Positions 15,713 through 31,724 of a stretch of 46,640 nt of DNA are shown here, piece by piece. The notes below the pieces were generated by a model. It did no database searches. It had not been told where the DNA came from and saw nothing but the letters and a program-made list of their open reading frames with translations. The stretch's first letter is position 1. Every line of letters starts with the position of its first letter. Source of the DNA: Candidatus Caribbeanibacter nitroreducens (GTDB lineage Bacteria; Gemmatimonadota; Gemmatimonadetes; Palauibacterales; Palauibacteraceae); NCBI GenBank assembly GCA_947581645.1, contig CANPVF010000165.1:1-46640 (forward strand), in the 5' to 3' direction. The translations under genes were made by a program, and so were the position numbers.

Positions 15713-16351
15713 CTATCCGGATCGTCGGGCCACGGCGGCCCGCTCCTCGGAGGCCAGCACCTCCAGGCCCGAGCCCTCCAGATCGCGCCGGGCGTCCTCG
15801 TCCGGGCGGAGCAGGGCCAGCCGCCCGCCCGGCGACAGCGCGCGGCGGGCGTCCTCCAGGGCCCCGGCGCCGGGCTTCCACAGGGCCACGCCCTCCGCCT
15901 TGCCGGGGAGGAGGGGGAGCCGGCCGGCCGGGGCGAGGACCAGGGTCCAGGAGTCGGCGGCGCCGTCCCCGGCCTCTTCGGCCAGCGCCAGGAGGGAGAC
16001 GCCCTCCAGCAGCCCGGCCAGGGGGCCCGCCGCCGGCGCGAGCCCGTGTCCCAGGACCACGGGGCCACTGGCGCTCCGCAGGTCCAGGAGCCCTCCGATC
16101 TCCGCGGCCAGCTCCCGCGGCGACGGGCGCCCGCCGTCGCCCTCGGCGACGCGCTCGGGCTCCCCGCTGCCGCCTCCGCCCAGGAGATCCACCACGCCGT
16201 CCCGGATGGGATACCGGCGCTGACAGCGGGAGCAGCCCAGGTCGCCGTCCCGCACGCGGCCCTCGTCGTCGAGCTCGTCCACCAGGACGATGAGCCCCTG
16301 GGGAGATCGGCAGTCGGGGCAGGTCAGGATCTCGCTCAGCTCGATCTGCAT
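15713..16351 (-). CDS. Trm112-like zinc domain protein with degenerate methyltransferase-like tail
   Basis: Residues 1-60 form a Trm112-like zinc domain with two cysteine pairs (CPDC about 11-14, CSRC about 40-43), followed by RRYPIRDGVVDLL, the typical C-terminal strand of that domain. The remaining 150 residues resemble the end of a class I methyltransferase in ARRALSPGGRLALLRP, but the usual glycine-rich SAM loop is replaced by VVLGHGLAPAAG. In other bacteria Trm112 domains are often fused to methyltransferases. Here the catalytic part appears eroded, so a binding or scaffold role is possible. The gene lies 40 bases after the reductase gene. Confidence 0.75.
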   Translation of the reverse strand: MQIELSEILTCPDCRSPQGLIVLVDELDDEGRVRDGDLGCSRCQRRYPIRDGVVDLLGGGGSGEPERVAEGDGGRPSPRELAAEIGGLLDLRSASGPVVLGHGLAPAAGPLAGLLEGVSLLALAEEAGDGAADSWTLVLAPAGRLPLLPGKAEGVALWKPGAGALEDARRALSPGGRLALLRPDEDARRDLEGSGLEVLASEERAAVARRSG

Positions 16352-16391: not shown

Positions 16392-17114
16392 CTACGGCTC
16401 GAGGGAGAGGCTGTCCGGGGAGCCTCCCCGCCCGTAGGGCCCCATCCGGAGCACGTCCGCGACGGCCCGGGCCACCTGGCCCGGTGCCAGCATGGCCTCG
16501 CGGGCCGGGAGATCGTCCCCGAGACGCTCCTCCAGGTCGTCCCAGGCCGCCGTGTCCACGGCCCCGGGCTCGAGCAGCGTGCTGCACACGCCGGAGCCCT
16601 GCAGCTCCACCCGCAGCACCTCGTGCAGGCCCCGGAGGCCGAACTTGGAGGCCGAGTACGCGGCGTTGCCCGGCAGGGCGCGTCGGCCGGCCACCGAGCC
16701 CAGGTGCACCAGGTGGCCGTCGCCTCGCTCCCGCATCGCGCCGAGGAACTCCCGGGTCAGGAGGGCCGGCGCCCGCAGGTTGAGTGACAGGTGACGGTCC
16801 AGGACCTCCGTCGGGGTCTCGTGGGCCGCGGCCAGGTCGAAGACGCCGGCGTTGTTGACCAGGACGTGCGGCGGGCCTCCGAGGCGACGGCGCACCTCCT
16901 CCACGAGGGCCCGGATCTGTTCGTCGTCGGTCAGGTCGGCGGTCAGCGCCTCCCGGCCGCAGCGGCGGGCGACCTCCTCCAGCCCGGGACCGCCGCGGGA
17001 GACCGGGAGCACCCCGGCGCCGGCCTCCGCCAGGGAGAGGGCGACGTGGCGGCCGATGCCGCGGCTGGCGCCGGTCACCAGGGCGTCGACGCCCTCGAGG
17101 AACCGCTCGCTCAC
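16392..17114 (-). CDS. short-chain dehydrogenase/reductase, candidate sepiapterin reductase-like
   Basis: The 240-residue protein is a classical SDR. The NADP(H) motif is TGASRGIG (14-21), NNAG lies at 87-90, and the catalytic residues are Ser140, Tyr153 and Lys157 in [21 protein letters not shown]. An Arg follows the first Gly-rich motif, which favours NADPH. GTG 17114 overlaps the folE stop as GTGA, so it is translated with folE. Position after a PTPS and GTP cyclohydrolase I suggests that it reduces 6-pyruvoyl-tetrahydropterin, as sepiapterin reductase does. SDRs are too diverse to assign that from sequence alone. Confidence 0.85.
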
Positions 17115-17704
17115 GAGATGAACTGCGGCGACAGCACCAGTCCCAGGAACTCGTCCCGCGTCTTCTGGTCGTCCCGGAAGGTGCCGCGGACGGCGCTCGT
17201 GATGGTCTTGCTGTTCTGCTTCTCCACGCCGCGCATCATCATGCACAGGTGGTAGGCCTCCACCACCACGCCCACGCCGCTGGGCTCCAGCTCCTCCTGC
17301 AGGGCCTCCGCGATCTCCTCGGTGAGCCGCTCCTGGATCTGCAGGCGCCGCGAGAAAACGTCCACGACGCGGGGGATCTTGCTCAGGCCCACCACCTTCC
17401 CGTCGGGGATGTAGGCCACGTGCGCCTTCCCGAAGAACGGGAGCATGTGGTGCTCGCAGAGGGAGTACAGCTCCACGTCCTTGACCAGCACCATGCTGTC
17501 GTGGGGCTCCTGGAAGACGCCGTTTCCCAACGCCTCCTCCACGGTCATGTCGTAGCCGCGGGTCAGGAACTCCAGGGACTCCTCCACGCGCTCCGGCGTC
17601 CGCTCGAGGCCCGATCGGTCGGGATCCTCACCCAGGCGCCGGAGCTGCTCCCGCACCAGGTCCCGGAAGGAGACCTGGCTCAGGTCCGGCTCTCCGTCAC
17701 TCAC
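17111..17704 (-). CDS. folE: GTP cyclohydrolase I
   Basis: The 197-residue protein is full-length FolE. Zinc ligands are visible as Cys83 in [11 protein letters not shown] and Cys154 in [25 protein letters not shown] and [16 protein letters not shown] are family signatures. It converts GTP to 7,8-dihydroneopterin triphosphate, the shared precursor of folate, queuosine and biopterin. GTG 17704 overlaps the PTPS stop by 8 bases and the stop overlaps the SDR start by 4. That places it in the middle of a coupled three-gene unit. folK is elsewhere (31155-31724), so this copy may serve biopterin rather than only folate. Confidence 0.96.
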
Positions 17705-18110
17705 CGCGGTACTCCACCATGTTGCGCTCCGTCTCCCACAGCTTCAGCGATACGAGCTCGGCACCGTCCAGGTTGCCCTCCAGGCGGTCCCAGATCCGGA
17801 CGACCAGGTTCTCGGCCGTGGGGATCACGCCCTCCATCCACTCCACGTCCACGTTCAGGTTGGCGTGATCCACGTCGTCGACGACGGCGCGGTGGACCAG
17901 TTCCTTCACCCGCTTCAGATCGATCACGTAGCCGGTGTCGGGATCCACCTCTCCCCGCACCGTCACCTCGAGGTCGTAGTTGTGTCCGTGACCGGCGGGG
18001 TTGCTGCACGCCCCGTACAGCTCCCGGTTCTCCTCGTCGCTGAGTCCCGGCCTGGCCAGCCGGTGTCCCGCGGAGAAGTGAACCTTTCTGGTGACGCGAA
18101 CCGTCGGCAT
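17697..18110 (-). CDS. 6-pyruvoyl-tetrahydropterin synthase-like protein (PTPS-II type)
   Basis: The 137-residue protein belongs to COG0720. Zinc-binding His16 is in FSAGHRL, with His41 and His43 in [11 protein letters not shown]. Cys35 is the catalytic cysteine, and Asp81-His82 (DDVDHANLN) and Glu100 (PTAEN) complete the site. The spacing C-x5-HGH and the segment [18 protein letters not shown] match the animal-type PTPS (PTPS-II). QueD, which makes a queuosine precursor, normally has C-x3-HGH. I therefore favour 6-pyruvoyl-tetrahydropterin formation for biopterin. ATG 18110 follows GGGAGAGGATC. It heads the minus-strand run. Confidence 0.88.
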
Positions 18111-18323
18111 GATCCTCTCCCGTCCGGTGTCGTCTGCGCCGTCGAGTGCGGCCACAGGGACGTGCAGGACCCGCGCCAGAGCAGGCGGCGGGGCACGTCC
18201 CCTGCATCTTCGTTGCGGGCGGGCGCAGCGACCGTCGCCCGCGCCGTCCCGCGTCTCCATCCCGGCGCTCGCGGCCGGGGCCCTGCGCCGCTCGTCCGCT
18301 CACTCGTTCGCCCAGGAGACCCC

Positions 18324-19190
18324 GTGCACACCGTTCAGCGAGACGACGCCGGCCCGGACCGAGCCAGGTTCTCGCGGCTCGGAATGGCCTCCCTCGTCCT
18401 CCTGGCCCTGCTGTCGGTGCCCGCCGCCCTGGCCGGGCTCGGGAAGCTCCTCGTCATCTCGTGGACGGCCTTCGTCGCCATGGCCGGCATGATCCCCGTG
18501 GGGAGCCGGGCCGCCGAGCACCGGCATCCCCGGTACCTGGTGTGGGGATACGGGCTGGCCAGCGGTGCCATGATCACTTCCGCGGCCGTCTTCCTCGTGC
18601 CGCCGGCCCTGGGGCAGGGGAGCGCCGCGGTGGGCGGCTTCGGCCTCGCCCTGGGCATCCTCGCCGGCTTCGCGGGGCACACCGTGGGCCACCGCCTCAC
18701 CCACGCGGGCATCGAGTACGACGCGGCGGCCGTGGAGCTGGGCGCCCACGCCCTCTCGGCCGGGGCCATCATCGGGCTCGTGTACAACACGCTGCCGGAG
18801 CTGGGGGCGGTGCTCGGCCTCTCCATCGTCTCGCACAAGGCGCCGGCCGGCTACGCCGCCTCGCACCGCCTCTCCCGCGCCGGCCGTCGTACCAGCGTCC
18901 TGCTGGTCCCGGCGTGCGGCGTGGGGCTCACCGCCCTCCCCGTCGGCCTCCTGGAGCTTCCCGACGACCCGATGCTGAGCGGCGCCGTGTTCGGCTTCGC
19001 CGCGGGCATCTTCCTGCACGTGGCCATGGACTTCCTCCCCCGGTGTGAGATCGGGGACGAAGTGTACCGGGCGGCCGCGCTCTCGAACGACGGCCACGCC
19101 CGGCTGGACCGCCTGCGCGTGCACGCCGTGGTGAGCACCTTCCTCGGTGGCGCGGCGGTGCTGGCGGCCTGGCTGGCCCTCCCGGCCTGA
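18324..19190 (+). CDS. ZIP-family metal transporter-like membrane protein
   Basis: The protein is about 288 residues with about eight hydrophobic helices. The ZIP pattern is seen in the pair of metal-site helices: GAHALSAGAIIGLVYNTLP followed by LSIVSHKAPAGYAASHRL. A later GIFLHVAMDFLPRCE supplies further His and Asp residues. ZIP carriers move zinc, iron or manganese into the cytoplasm. GTG 18324 has CAGGAG five bases upstream. ATG 18384 (MASLVLLALL) is an alternative that removes the 20-residue soluble leader. The gene lies 80 bases before the metal-binding operon in the same orientation. Confidence 0.8.
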   Translation: MHTVQRDDAGPDRARFSRLGMASLVLLALLSVPAALAGLGKLLVISWTAFVAMAGMIPVGSRAAEHRHPRYLVWGYGLASGAMITSAAVFLVPPALGQGSAAVGGFGLALGILAGFAGHTVGHRLTHAGIEYDAAAVELGAHALSAGAIIGLVYNTLPELGAVLGLSIVSHKAPAGYAASHRLSRAGRRTSVLLVPACGVGLTALPVGLLELPDDPMLSGAVFGFAAGIFLHVAMDFLPRCEIGDEVYRAAALSNDGHARLDRLRVHAVVSTFLGGAAVLAAWLALPA

Positions 19191-19236
19191 GGAGGACCAC
19201 CGGACGCCGTTCTCCCCTGCGTCACGGGGGTGATCG

Positions 19237-19265
19237 TTGCCGACCGCGACGCCGTTCGGTATCTT
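19237..19265 (+). promoter_or_regulatory. sigma70-like promoter placed for leaderless transcription
   Basis: TTGCCG (19237-19242) and TATCTT (19260-19265) are separated by exactly 17 bases. The next start codon, ATG 19271, begins only five bases after the -10 box. A transcript starting about seven bases beyond the box would begin at or within that ATG. No SD is present. This predicts a leaderless message for the metal operon. Confidence 0.55.
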
Positions 19266-19270
19266 ACGGC

Positions 19271-19603
19271 ATGATTCGAAGATCCGTCGCACGCCGTCCG
19301 GTCGCCCTCCTCCTGGCGGCCCTCCTGTCCGCCGGCGGCGCGGCCGTGCCCCTGCTCGACGCGGCACCGGCCGACCACCGGCCGCAGGTCGAGGCGAGCC
19401 ACGACCCGTCACGCTGCGGCGTGGGCCACGACCATCTCGCCTGCCGGCTCCTGAGCGGAGGGGCCACGGCCCCGTCGGAGCCTCCCGGCGTCGAGCTCGG
19501 CGCCGACCGGGCGAGCACGGGTCCCGCCCGCCGGACCTCGGACGCTCCCACCACGCCGTCCCGAACCCTTCCGGAACCGAGAGGACCTCCCGCCGCGGGC
19601 TGA
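19271..19603 (+). CDS. small exported His/Cys-containing protein of the metal operon
   Basis: The 110-residue product has an N-terminal signal sequence, RRSVARRPVALLLAALLSAGG, ending near residue 25-32. It is followed by a short motif with several potential metal ligands: DHRP, EASHDPSRCGVGHDHLAC. The C-terminal half is Pro/Thr/Arg-rich and probably disordered. The ATG at 19271 sits directly behind the promoter described at 19237. The position ahead of a porin and a ZnuA-like protein suggests a periplasmic metal-binding or sensing peptide. No known family is recognised, and the low-complexity tail makes the exact extent less certain. Confidence 0.6.
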   Translation: MIRRSVARRPVALLLAALLSAGGAAVPLLDAAPADHRPQVEASHDPSRCGVGHDHLACRLLSGGATAPSEPPGVELGADRASTGPARRTSDAPTTPSRTLPEPRGPPAAG

Positions 19604-19731
19604 ACCTCGCCCGTTTCCCCGGCCGTCCCCACCGCGGGGCGCCCGGACATCGACGGTGAGTCCCCGATCGCAGCCCGGGCTACGAGCTCGGGCCTCGGCC
19701 GGCACCGTCGCCCGTTCCTCCCGGAGGTCCC

Positions 19732-21114
19732 ATGACATACGCCCGCAGTCGGCGCGCGGTGCCGCGCCTCGTTCTCCTCGCCCTCGGCCTGCTCTGTGCC
19801 CACGCCGTCCGTCCCGGACCCGCGGGGGCCGCGCAGGAGGCCGACAGCGTCTCCCCCGCTCCCCCGGACACCGTGGCGGCGGTCCCGGACTCGATCCTGG
19901 ACCGGCTGGACCGGCTGGAGGCGGAGGTCCGCACCCTGCGCTCGACCCTCGACAGCCTCGACGCCGCCGGGGCGGAGAGGGCGGCTCCGCCCGGCGACGC
20001 CCGGGCCGATCTCCGCGAGGCGGCCCGAGCGGCCGCGAAGGAGGCGGCGTCCGAGAGGCCGGACACCGGGGGCGGCGGGACCAGCCGCACCCGCAGCCTG
20101 CAGGCGCTGAACCCGGAGATCAGCGTCACCGGCGATTTCGTCGCCAGCGCCCTGGACCCGGGTGGTGCCGGCGACGAGGTGACGGCCACGCCCCGGGGCG
20201 TGGAGCTGTCGCTGCAGGCAGCCCTGGACCCCTACACCCGCATGAAGGTCTACGCCGTCCGGGAGGAGGAGCTGGAGATCGCGGGCCTCCCCCACGAGGA
20301 GGGCGAGGGGGGCGAGGAGGAGCACGCGGCCGGCGTCGACGTGGAGGAGGCGTACATGTACTGGGTGGGGCTCCCGGGGGGATTCGGGGCCCGGATCGGC
20401 AAGTTCCGCCAGGAGCTCGGCCTCTACAACCGCTGGCACACCCACGCCCTGTTCGAGGTGGACCGTCCCCTGGCGGCGACCACGTTCCTCGGCGAGGGGC
20501 TGATCCAGCCGGGCGTCGGCCTCACCCTCCCGTCCTTCGCGCTGGGCCCCGCCGGGCAGACCCTCACGCTGGAGGCGGCCCGTGCCGACAACACGCCCCT
20601 GTTCGGCGAGGAGGGCGACCTCAGCTACCTGGCGCGCTACCGGAGCTTCATCGACCTGGGCCCGGCCAGCTACCTCCAGGTCGGCGCCACCGGCGTCTAC
20701 GGCGAGAACGACGGGTCGGACCTCGAGTCGCGCCTGCTGGGCCTGGACCTCTCCTACCGGTGGCGACCGCCGTCGCGGGGCCGGTACCGGGACCTGCAGC
20801 TCAAGTCGGAGTGGTTCTTCGCCGAGCGGGAGACCGGCGCCCTCTCCGAGACCGGGCACGGCGGGTACCTCCAGGCCAACCTGCGGCTGGACCGGAGCTG
20901 GACGCTCGGCGCGCGGGGAGACTGGGTGGACGGCTACGGCGACGGGCCGGGGACCCTGCTGCAGCTCGCGCCGAGCGTGAGCTGGTGGCAGAGCGAGTGG
21001 GTGCGGCTCCGGCTCCAGTACAACTGGCTCCATCCCGACGTCGGGTCCGACGGTCACACGCTGCTCTTCCAGGTGGTCTGGGCTGCCGGTCCCCACAAGC
21101 ACGAGACGTACTGA
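19732..21114 (+). CDS. outer-membrane beta-barrel porin-like protein of the metal operon
   Basis: The 460-residue protein has a signal peptide (about 1-34, ending AGAAQ) and a predicted coiled-coil (LDRLDRLEAEVRTLRSTLDS, about 58-77). The barrel (about 125-460) has alternating aromatic/polar strands such as GGFGARIGKFRQELGLYN and YLQVGATGVYGENDG. It ends with Tyr rather than Phe (HKHETY). An acidic/His insert, EEGEGGEEEHAAG (about 187-199), could attract metal ions. GGAGG lies four bases before ATG 19732. It is one base from the binding-protein gene, so an outer-membrane entry route for the same metal is inferred. Confidence 0.83.
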   Translation: MTYARSRRAVPRLVLLALGLLCAHAVRPGPAGAAQEADSVSPAPPDTVAAVPDSILDRLDRLEAEVRTLRSTLDSLDAAGAERAAPPGDARADLREAARAAAKEAASERPDTGGGGTSRTRSLQALNPEISVTGDFVASALDPGGAGDEVTATPRGVELSLQAALDPYTRMKVYAVREEELEIAGLPHEEGEGGEEEHAAGVDVEEAYMYWVGLPGGFGARIGKFRQELGLYNRWHTHALFEVDRPLAATTFLGEGLIQPGVGLTLPSFALGPAGQTLTLEAARADNTPLFGEEGDLSYLARYRSFIDLGPASYLQVGATGVYGENDGSDLESRLLGLDLSYRWRPPSRGRYRDLQLKSEWFFAERETGALSETGHGGYLQANLRLDRSWTLGARGDWVDGYGDGPGTLLQLAPSVSWWQSEWVRLRLQYNWLHPDVGSDGHTLLFQVVWAAGPHKHETY

Positions 21115-21115
21115 G

Positions 21116-22228
21116 ATGAGACACGACACGAGACGGCACGCGCGTACTCCGATTCCACTCGTCTTCGTCCTGGCCGCGATGGTGGCGCTCCCGTCGGCGG
21201 TCCTCGGGTCCGTCGCCGGGCCCGCCGGGCCGCCGCACCAGGAGCAGGAGACGGTGCGGGTGGTGACGACGCTGCCCACCTACGCCGCCATCGCCCGGGA
21301 GATCACCGGCGACCTGGCCCGGGTGGAGGCCATCGCCCGCGGCGACGAGGATCCACACTTCGTCACCCCCCGTCCCAGCTTCGCCCGGGCCATCTCCCGG
21401 GCCGACCTGTTCGTCACGACGGGTCTCGACCTGGAAGTCTGGGTGCCGGGACTCCTGGACCGGGCCAACAACCCCCGGGTCCTGGAGGGGGCGCCCGGCC
21501 ACGTGGTGGCGTACTCGGGCGTCCGGCTGCTGGACGTCCCGGAGACCACCTCCCGCGCCGAGGGGGACATCCACATCTACGGCAACCCCCACGTCCACAC
21601 CGACCCGGTGAACGCCGTGCAGATCGCCCGCAACATCCTGGAGGGGCTCCGGAGGGTGGACCCGGACAACGCGGCCGGGTACGAACGGCGGACGCGGGAC
21701 TTCGAGGACCGCATCCTCGCCCGGACCTTCGGCGACCGGATGATCGACCTCCTGGGGCGGGAGAGCCTCCTGGAGCTGGCGCTGAACGGTCGGTTCTGGA
21801 GCTTCGTCGAGGGCCGGGAGATCGACGGCCGCCCGCTGGTGGACCAGCTCGGCGGCTGGCTCGCCGAGGCCGCGCCGTTCCGCGGACGCAGCCTGGCGTG
21901 CTACCACAAGAACTGGAGCTACTTCAGTCACCGCTTCCGGATCCCCTGCGCCATCTACGTGGAGGAGAAGCCCGGCGTGCCGCCGACGCCCGGCCAGGTG
22001 GGCCGCGTCATCACCTTTCTCCGGGACCAGGAGCTGCCGGTGCTCCTGGCCGCCAACTACTTCAGCCGCGGGCAGGTGAACCGGGTGGCGGAGCGCACCG
22101 GAGGGGTCGCCGTCATCGTGCCGGAGCACGTGGGCGGCGCCGAGGGCGTCGACACCTACTTCGACCTGGTCGACCTGTGGGTGAGCCGCCTCGCCGAAGC
22201 CTACTCCGGGTCCGGGGGCGCCCGATGA
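21116..22228 (+). CDS. ZnuA/TroA-like metal-binding protein of an ABC importer
   Basis: The 370-residue protein has a signal sequence (about 1-37) and the cluster A-I fold. It opens VRVVTTLPTYAAIAREITGD, and metal-ligand histidines are seen in EDPHFVTPRPS (about 80), GNPHVHTDPVNA (about 158-163) and ACYHKNWSYFSHRF (about 263). The long helix between lobes is DRMIDLLGRESLLELAL. The usual acidic fourth ligand after the linker is not obvious: the corresponding place reads AANYFSRGQVNRVAERTGG. Periplasmic capture of zinc, manganese or iron is expected. The stop overlaps the permease start as ATGA. Confidence 0.9.
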   Translation: MRHDTRRHARTPIPLVFVLAAMVALPSAVLGSVAGPAGPPHQEQETVRVVTTLPTYAAIAREITGDLARVEAIARGDEDPHFVTPRPSFARAISRADLFVTTGLDLEVWVPGLLDRANNPRVLEGAPGHVVAYSGVRLLDVPETTSRAEGDIHIYGNPHVHTDPVNAVQIARNILEGLRRVDPDNAAGYERRTRDFEDRILARTFGDRMIDLLGRESLLELALNGRFWSFVEGREIDGRPLVDQLGGWLAEAAPFRGRSLACYHKNWSYFSHRFRIPCAIYVEEKPGVPPTPGQVGRVITFLRDQELPVLLAANYFSRGQVNRVAERTGGVAVIVPEHVGGAEGVDTYFDLVDLWVSRLAEAYSGSGGAR

Positions 22229-23076
22229 TGGAGCTCATGCTCCCGGCCCTGGTGGCCTGCCTGGTGCTGGTGGGCATCCACGGCTACCTGGGCGTCCACA
22301 TCATCGCCCGGGGCGTCATCTTCGTGGACCTGGCCCTGGCCCAGGTGGCGGCCCTGGGATGGACCGCCGCGGGCTTCGGACCCGGGAGCTGGCTGGCCGG
22401 CGTCCTGGGTGTCTCCCCCGAGACCGCAGCCTACCTGGTGGGCCTCCTGGCCACCCTGATCGCCGCCGCCGTGTTCAGCGTCTCCCGGATCGACCACGAG
22501 CACATCACCCAGGAGGCCATCATCGGCATCGTCTACGTGGTCGCCTCGGCCGGGACGATCCTGCTGGCGGCGCAGGCGCCCCGCGGCTCCGAGCACGTGG
22601 AGGAGCTCCTCACCGGGACGCTGCTGTGGGTCACCTGGCCCACGGTGATGAAGACGGCCCTCCTGTACGCCGCCCTCGGCGTCGTCCACTGGCTGCTCCG
22701 GGACCGCTTCCTCACCATCTCGCTGGAGCCGGAGCGGGCCCGGCGGGAGGGTTGGGCGGTGCGGGCCTGGGACTTCCTCTTCTACGCCCTGTTCGGCGTC
22801 GTCGTCACGTCGTCGGTGGCCATCGCCGGGGTCCTGGTGGTGTTCAGCTTCCTCGTGATCCCGGCGGTCATCGCCTTCCTGTTCGTCCGCTCGCCCGGTC
22901 GCCTGCTGGCCGTGGCGTGGGTCACCGGCACGCTGGCGGCGGTGGCCGGCGTCCTGGCCTCCTACGGCACCGACCTGCCCACGGGCCCCCTCGTCGTCTC
23001 CTCCTTCGCGGCGGCGCTGCTCGTCGCCTTCGGCGTCCGGTGGGCGAGCGGGCGCCGGCCGGCCGGAACCGGGTGA
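22225..23076 (+). CDS. ZnuB-like permease subunit of a metal ABC importer
   Basis: The 283-residue protein has about eight hydrophobic helices and the ABC-3 family signatures GVHIIARGVIFVDLALAQVA and ITQEAIIGIVYVVASAGTIL. It also has GVVVTSSVAIAGVLVVFSFL. It should form the membrane channel for the upstream binding protein. ATG 22225 overlaps the upstream stop by four bases. The expected ATPase gene (ZnuC type) is not beside it: upstream is the binding protein and downstream, 65 bases away, the convergent antiporter. The ATPase must be encoded elsewhere, or the module is incomplete. Confidence 0.92.
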   Translation: MMELMLPALVACLVLVGIHGYLGVHIIARGVIFVDLALAQVAALGWTAAGFGPGSWLAGVLGVSPETAAYLVGLLATLIAAAVFSVSRIDHEHITQEAIIGIVYVVASAGTILLAAQAPRGSEHVEELLTGTLLWVTWPTVMKTALLYAALGVVHWLLRDRFLTISLEPERARREGWAVRAWDFLFYALFGVVVTSSVAIAGVLVVFSFLVIPAVIAFLFVRSPGRLLAVAWVTGTLAAVAGVLASYGTDLPTGPLVVSSFAAALLVAFGVRWASGRRPAGTG

Positions 23077-31154: not shown

Positions 31155-31724
31155 TCACGTGATCTCGTTCGACGCGCGGTACGGCTCGAGGCCCGGGGAC
31201 GTGTGCCGGCGTGCCAGCTCCGTCACCGTCTCTCCCACCACCGGGTGTCGCCACTCCGGCACGAGTTCGGAGAGCGGGCGAAGGACGAAGCCCCGCTCCG
31301 CCATCCTCGGATGAGGGACCTCCAGCCCCGCCTCCCGAATCCGCAGATCATCCACGAGCAGCAGGTCCAGGTCCAGACACCGCGGCTCCCCCGGGCTCCG
31401 CTGCAGTGAACGGCCGGCGCCCAGCTCGACGTAGCGGAGCTGGTCCAGGACTCTCCTCGCCGCCCCGCGGCCTGCCGGGCCGTCTCCTCTCCACACCCCG
31501 GCGACGCACATGTTCAGGTATCCGCCGCCGCGGGCCCCCTCCCGGGGCGGGCTCCGGTAGACGCTGGACGTACGGAGGCGCTCCAGGCACCGCTCCAGCT
31601 CCCTCGCGGCGAACCGCAGACACTCCTCCCGGTCGCCCAGGTTCGAGCCGATTCCCACGGCGACGCGTGCTCCGGCTGCGGGTCTCTCCTCGGCCCGGCC
31701 CACGGCGGCCACCTCCGTCCACAC
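31155..31724 (-). CDS. folK: 2-amino-4-hydroxy-6-hydroxymethyldihydropteridine pyrophosphokinase
   Basis: The 189-residue protein is recognised as FolK by ARVAVGIGSNLGDREE, SSVYRSPP, GYLNMCVAG, and the signature PRCLDLDLLLVDDL with VPHPRMAERGFVLRPL. It transfers pyrophosphate from ATP to the pterin alcohol in folate synthesis. Start choice is uncertain. GTG 31724 has AGGA seven bases upstream; GTG 31712 and GTG 31703 are possible and give a protein closer to the usual 160-residue size. It lies after the SusD gene on the same strand but behind a strong terminator, so it has its own promoter or depends on read-through. Confidence 0.9.
   Translation of the reverse strand: MWTEVAAVGRAEERPAAGARVAVGIGSNLGDREECLRFAARELERCLERLRTSSVYRSPPREGARGGGYLNMCVAGVWRGDGPAGRGAARRVLDQLRYVELGAGRSLQRSPGEPRCLDLDLLLVDDLRIREAGLEVPHPRMAERGFVLRPLSELVPEWRHPVVGETVTELARRHTSPGLEPYRASNEIT

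Follow-up and report, generated by a model that had tools for sequence, protein, structure and literature searches.

The window analysed here, a stretch of 46,640 nucleotides that makes up contig C165 of a 2.96 Mb genome with a completeness of 96%, carries three overlapping genes for a COG0720 protein, a GTP cyclohydrolase I (FolE) and an SDR. Members of the COG0720 family serve different pterin pathways, and the question that the locus raises is which of these the unit belongs to. The first-pass annotation proposed that the genes make tetrahydrobiopterin (BH4) or an isomer of it, not a queuosine precursor. A bacterial BH4 pathway is already known (PMC5041015, PMC5683033), and within COG0720 gene clustering has been given as grounds for linking the PTPS-II subfamily to BH4 (PMC5041015); for Gemmatimonadota, no account of BH4 turned up in the literature searched. 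Our analysis indicates that the three genes are likely to form a BH4 operon. The features on which the argument draws are as follows.

17697-18110, minus strand: PTPS-II, 6-pyruvoyltetrahydropterin synthase (C-x5-HGH), 137 aa, first gene of the unit (PF01242, E 5e-34)
17111-17704, minus strand: FolE, GTP cyclohydrolase I, second gene (TIGR00063, 249.9 bits)
16392-17114, minus strand: SDR, candidate Chlorobium-type sepiapterin reductase, 240 aa, third gene (PF00106, E 5.5e-42)
15713-16351, minus strand: fourth gene, Trm112 zinc domain and methyltransferase-like Rossmann fold (PF03966)
17697-17704, minus strand: PTPS/FolE overlap of 8 bases, GTGAGTGA (from the sequence)
17111-17114, minus strand: FolE/SDR overlap of 4 bases, GTGA (from the sequence)
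18114-18121, minus strand: good Shine-Dalgarno-like GGGAGAGG ahead of the PTPS ATG (from the sequence, by eye)
31257-31658, minus strand: FolK (HPPK) of the folate branch, outside the PTPS-FolE-SDR unit (PF01288)

The SDR gene is placed at 16392-17114 because the GTG at 17114 is the start that yields the 4-base GTGA overlap. Motif, TIGR00063, PF00106 and coordinates all agree with the original description of three overlapping genes for a C-x5-HGH PTPS, a GTP cyclohydrolase I and an SDR, and both overlaps are present in the sequence. The matched synthesis of the three enzymes that had been read from these overlaps is less secure: the exact overlaps differ between the units of relatives, so that this claim reduces to ordinary operon logic. 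PTPS, FolE and SDR are presumably expressed as one unit.

We infer the reactions and stereochemistry of the three enzymes as follows. FolE would convert GTP to 7,8-dihydroneopterin triphosphate. PTPS-II, with zinc held by three His residues and a Cys-Asp-His triad, would remove the triphosphate and rearrange the side chain to give 6-pyruvoyl-tetrahydropterin. The SDR, with NADPH, would then reduce both side-chain ketones to give tetrahydrobiopterin in the manner of the Chlorobium sepiapterin reductase.

Identity of the synthase and the reductase

Three signatures divide COG0720, with C-x5-HGH in PTPS-II, C-x3-HGH in PTPS-I/QueD and ExxHGH in PTPS-III (PMC5041015). The window PTPS reads CSNPAGHGH, the CxxxxxHGH signature, which recurs in every operon PTPS listed and is shared with the bacterial PTPS-II proteins already described (the SEED 'PTPS paralogs' and Synechococcus PTPS-II). 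Its Cys lies six residues ahead of HGH, so the QueD signature CxxxHGH is absent; a Pro stands at the Glu place of the PTPS-III signature (PAGHGH); and the score against the QueD model TIGR03367 is 69.3 bits, below the curated cut-off of 89.25. Residues H16, H41, H43, C35, D81, H82 and E126 are invariant in 29 PTPS-II rows and are the equivalents of His23, His48, His50, Cys42, Asp88, His89 and Glu133 of rat PTPS, where we take the three His to be the zinc ligands, Cys42, Asp88 and His89 to be catalytic and Glu133 to anchor the pterin. QueD and PTPS-III belong to the same family and have the same zinc site, but the window PTPS differs from them in signature and in tree branch, and a separate CExxHGH protein is encoded elsewhere in the same genome. 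Among solved structures, its nearest relatives are the human and rat enzymes. In a 66-row tree, operon PTPS-II and animal PTPS (human, rat and 2g64 chains) form one group with moderate support (82/88), and QueD and PTPS-III branch apart from it. Motif, active site and phylogeny thus agree with the earlier assignment of the COG0720 protein as an animal-type PTPS and not QueD. Such an enzyme would be expected to make 6-pyruvoyl-tetrahydropterin.

The likeness to the animal BH4 pathway (GCH1, PTS, SPR) lies in the PTPS, which has the same active site and C-x5-HGH, whereas animal SPR is a distant SDR that lacks the Trp discussed below. For the reductase the nearer comparison is the L-threo-BH4 pathway of Chlorobium tepidum (FolE, PTPS and the sepiapterin reductase CTSR, 2bd0), with which the window unit shares the three enzyme types, the SDR clade and Trp196. 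The window SDR keeps the catalytic residues Ser140-Tyr153-Lys157 together with Trp191 (240-aa numbering); the triad, S141, Y154 and K158 in alignment numbering, is invariant among the aligned operon SDRs. Our tree unites CTSR and 27 operon SDRs of several phyla in a single clade (91/88), and E. coli FabG, acetoin reductase and other SDRs lie outside; the clade is still recovered at 80/85 once long branches and the F99 and W196 columns are removed. We regard the grouping as moderately supported. An AU test does not reject an arrangement in which the operon SDRs form a clade of their own that excludes CTSR (p 0.20), and CTSR may therefore sit either inside the operon SDRs or as their sister. The tree does not place the SDR with FabG or in an unrelated group, the outcome that would have counted against a BH4 operon.

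Two CTSR residues, Phe99 and Trp196, have been studied for L-threo-BH4 production (PMC7520308). A Trp in the W196 column is invariant in 36 operon SDRs (all first-position operon SDRs checked) and missing from the non-operon SDRs aligned, with Gln in that column in human SPR. We note that a Trp at this position is not unique to operon SDRs, as acetoin reductase 4weo also has one. Phe99 is mostly kept in the operon SDRs of KSB1, Bacteroidota and Ignavibacteriota, but the window SDR, which is about 30% identical to CTSR by fold alignment, has Leu in this column, with a Phe at an earlier loop position. When a profile of the 36 operon SDRs was searched against 488 solved chains, 2bd0 came second, 0.5 bit behind a two-domain enzyme. 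SDR families are difficult to separate, and searches with the window SDR by itself do not discriminate between SDR groups: 2bd0 ranked 9 in the single-sequence PDB search, and CTSR ranked 10 among near-equal SDRs in the fold search with the model. We propose the window SDR as a candidate CTSR-type sepiapterin reductase that would act on 6-pyruvoyl-tetrahydropterin. For genome annotation, the pathway can be called from a C-x5-HGH protein encoded next to FolE and an SDR that carries the Trp196 signature, and the genes of this operon should not be labelled queD or fabG.

Conservation of the unit and its neighbours

The order PTPS-FolE-SDR recurs in Gemmatimonadota, Ignavibacteriota, Bacteroidota, Rhodothermota and KSB1. 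Among named loci with enough sequence, the complete unit is present in 27 of 34 from Gemmatimonadota, 8 of 12 from Ignavibacteriota, 3 of 8 from Bacteroidota, and both of those from KSB1 (2/2) and Rhodothermota (2/2); the named Nitrospinota loci have PTPS-FolE only. The closest copies among named genomes are in Gemmatimonadota. The PTPS-FolE pair is kept in nearly all relatives that carry PTPS-II, with the SDR next to it in sister families, and in the single-contig genome G035 PTPS-II and FolE are fused in one 371-residue open frame that matches both families (L026:1501-2613). The repetition of this gene order, mostly with the SDR, at tens of loci belonging to several phyla, taken with the fusion, argues that the association is not due to chance. 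In the window's own family the SDR is missing beside the unit (E<=1e-33) in 14 of 16 PTPS-II genomes; these genomes would use a different reductase or make a different product.

About 50 bacterial cases of PTPS-II were counted earlier (PMC5041015), compared with 246 of 300 near-complete genomes of the phylum here (close homolog, E<=1e-30), a figure that is approximate because this threshold may admit a few Cys-less paralogs. The window unit is very probably a BH4-type operon of known kind that is very widespread in its phylum, and this breadth is one of its points of interest: most of a major bacterial phylum, together with allied phyla, would have a complete BH4 route of animal-like type.

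Variants of the unit were also observed. A second PTPS gene (CERLHGH; CRNLHGH in L164) directly follows the SDR in the BH4 operons of L126 (G043), L161, L164 and L201, and in G049 (L128) a CENLHGH PTPS adjoins the SDR. In L116 (G046), L150, L153, L155, L202 and L221, the SDR comes directly after PTPS-II and the intervening FolE is missing. A search for PF01227 (FolE) anywhere in G046, a single contig of 99% completeness, found none, and FolE2 may stand in for FolE in such loci.

The fourth gene, a Trm112/methyltransferase-like gene that distinguishes the window unit from that of C. tepidum, is kept with the unit in 26 of 34 named Gemmatimonadota loci and was not found beside it in named loci outside the phylum; it belongs to the unit in Gemmatimonadota. 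Its AlphaFold2 model (pLDDT 90) gives RlmA(I) and Bud23-type methyltransferases as the best folds, with weak matches (TM about 0.5). On the other side of the operon, and divergent from it, lie zinc uptake genes (18342-23076, plus strand) for a ZIP-like protein (sub-threshold score), ZnuA and an ABC-3 permease; in the operon, FolE and PTPS are themselves zinc enzymes. A Zur link between the operon and the uptake genes was considered and rejected: in the loci of relatives searched, no ZIP gene was found next to the unit, and there is no convincing palindrome.

Folate, queuosine and other COG0720 proteins

The genome holds three COG0720 genes, namely the window PTPS-II, a Cys-less paralog (C67) and a CEHLHGH protein of PTPS-I/III type (C142). 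The window FolE is the sole copy found (a single PF01227 match) and exceeds the TIGR00063 cut-off of 181.6. It must also supply the folate branch, which would run from the same FolE through the separate PTPS-III (CExxHGH, C142) and FolK.

Could the unit itself serve folate, with PTPS-II and FolE replacing FolB and the SDR a bystander? FolB was searched for in the genome and not found, FolK lies in the window, the only FolE sits in the operon, and most members of the family retain PTPS-II but have no SDR with it. However, the ExxHGH signature is missing from the window PTPS and present in the C142 paralog. Across 43 FolK-positive relatives, FolB occurs in 22 and a CExxHGH or folK-adjacent PTPS in 21, with no genome having both or neither. 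PTPS-II does not follow this pattern, since G054 carries it together with FolB, and it is retained in 7 genomes in which FolK, FolB and PTPS-III were not detected, some of these genomes being incomplete. The mutual exclusion of FolB and the other PTPS, together with the independence of PTPS-II from the folate genes, indicates that PTPS-II is not the folate enzyme, and we consider a folate bypass improbable. The case for a queuosine/preQ0 unit in which the PTPS is QueD is weaker again: the proteins share a family, the TIGR03367 match exists at a sub-threshold score, and FolE is also the first enzyme of the queuosine pathway, but the Cys spacing, the score and the separate tree branch all stand against it. 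QueC was searched for in the genome and not found, so a queuosine pathway that PTPS-II could serve is not evident, and neither is a queC whose only partner would be the window gene. This reading we judge highly improbable.

Several other COG0720 proteins were also noted. The C67 paralog (L004:5397-5807, minus strand; GTSATPHGH) is PTPS-II-like without the catalytic Cys and is flanked by dnaN and by a gene resembling those for ADP-forming acyl-CoA synthetases, with the same neighbours in G003 (L087); Cys-less paralogs form one well-supported branch (95/97) in which active-site residues vary. A folK-adjacent PTPS with SGRxHGH or similar, and neither the Cys nor the Glu signature, occurs in L238, L239, L240, L140 and L141 of FolB-less genomes (G041, G037, G040, G035 and G036) and is possibly a new kind of FolB replacement. 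A QueD-type PTPS (CRRLHGH) is present in G003, G007, G008, G009, G015, G018 and G021 and in family f2 (e.g., L085 and L112), and the QueC model finds nothing convincing in the genomes that bear it.

Product and use of the cofactor

A further possibility is that the unit makes a different reduced pterin, with a once-reduced side chain (lactoyl or oxo-hydroxypropyl tetrahydropterin) or as methylated or glycosylated BH4, for use as a redox cofactor or photoprotectant. Most genomes lack a known BH4 enzyme, a methyltransferase-like fourth gene is conserved in Gemmatimonadota, and C. tepidum produces glycosylated L-threo-BH4 (PMC5683033). Against this, BH4 accounts for the first three enzymes with no added assumptions, and the fourth gene resembles rRNA-type methyltransferases and was seen beside the unit in loci of Gemmatimonadota only. 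We regard such a product as unlikely. BH4 or an isomer remains the best reading of the unit, as originally proposed, because the PTPS is of type II, QueC was not found and the SDR groups with the Chlorobium sepiapterin reductase; the absence of the SDR from most family genomes and the search for a user enzyme described below weigh on the other side. The SDR evidence (CTSR clade and Trp196) would tip the balance slightly toward L-threo rather than L-erythro BH4 as the product.

A BH4-dependent aromatic amino acid hydroxylase was sought with Biopterin_H (PF00351), and none was found in the genome itself. Among 60 relatives it was found in 3 and not in the other 57. In the 300 near-complete genomes of the phylum a hydroxylase is present in 94, comprising 86 of the 246 with a PTPS-II-like match and 8 of the 54 without one; this co-occurrence (Fisher p 0.003, with no phylogenetic correction) we treat as weak evidence. 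The hydroxylase accounts for about a third of the PTPS-II cases. Since two thirds of the PTPS-II genomes have no detected hydroxylase, we tentatively suggest that most Gemmatimonadota, including this one, might produce BH4, probably in the L-threo form, as a permanent cofactor that serves an enzyme or role undescribed in bacteria, with the fourth gene perhaps modifying the pterin. The glycosylated product of C. tepidum makes bacterial roles of BH4 beyond hydroxylation plausible. The missing user enzyme is the second point of interest of this operon, and it makes an old question testable, that of BH4 use in bacteria without aromatic amino acid hydroxylases.

Pterin-4a-carbinolamine dehydratase (PCD, PF01329) was considered as a marker of pterin-dependent hydroxylation and set aside as uninformative, since 55 of 60 relatives have it, among them genomes that lack PTPS-II. 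In G045:C18 and G057:C8 (L229 and L100) the gene for this enzyme adjoins the CExxHGH PTPS-III gene.
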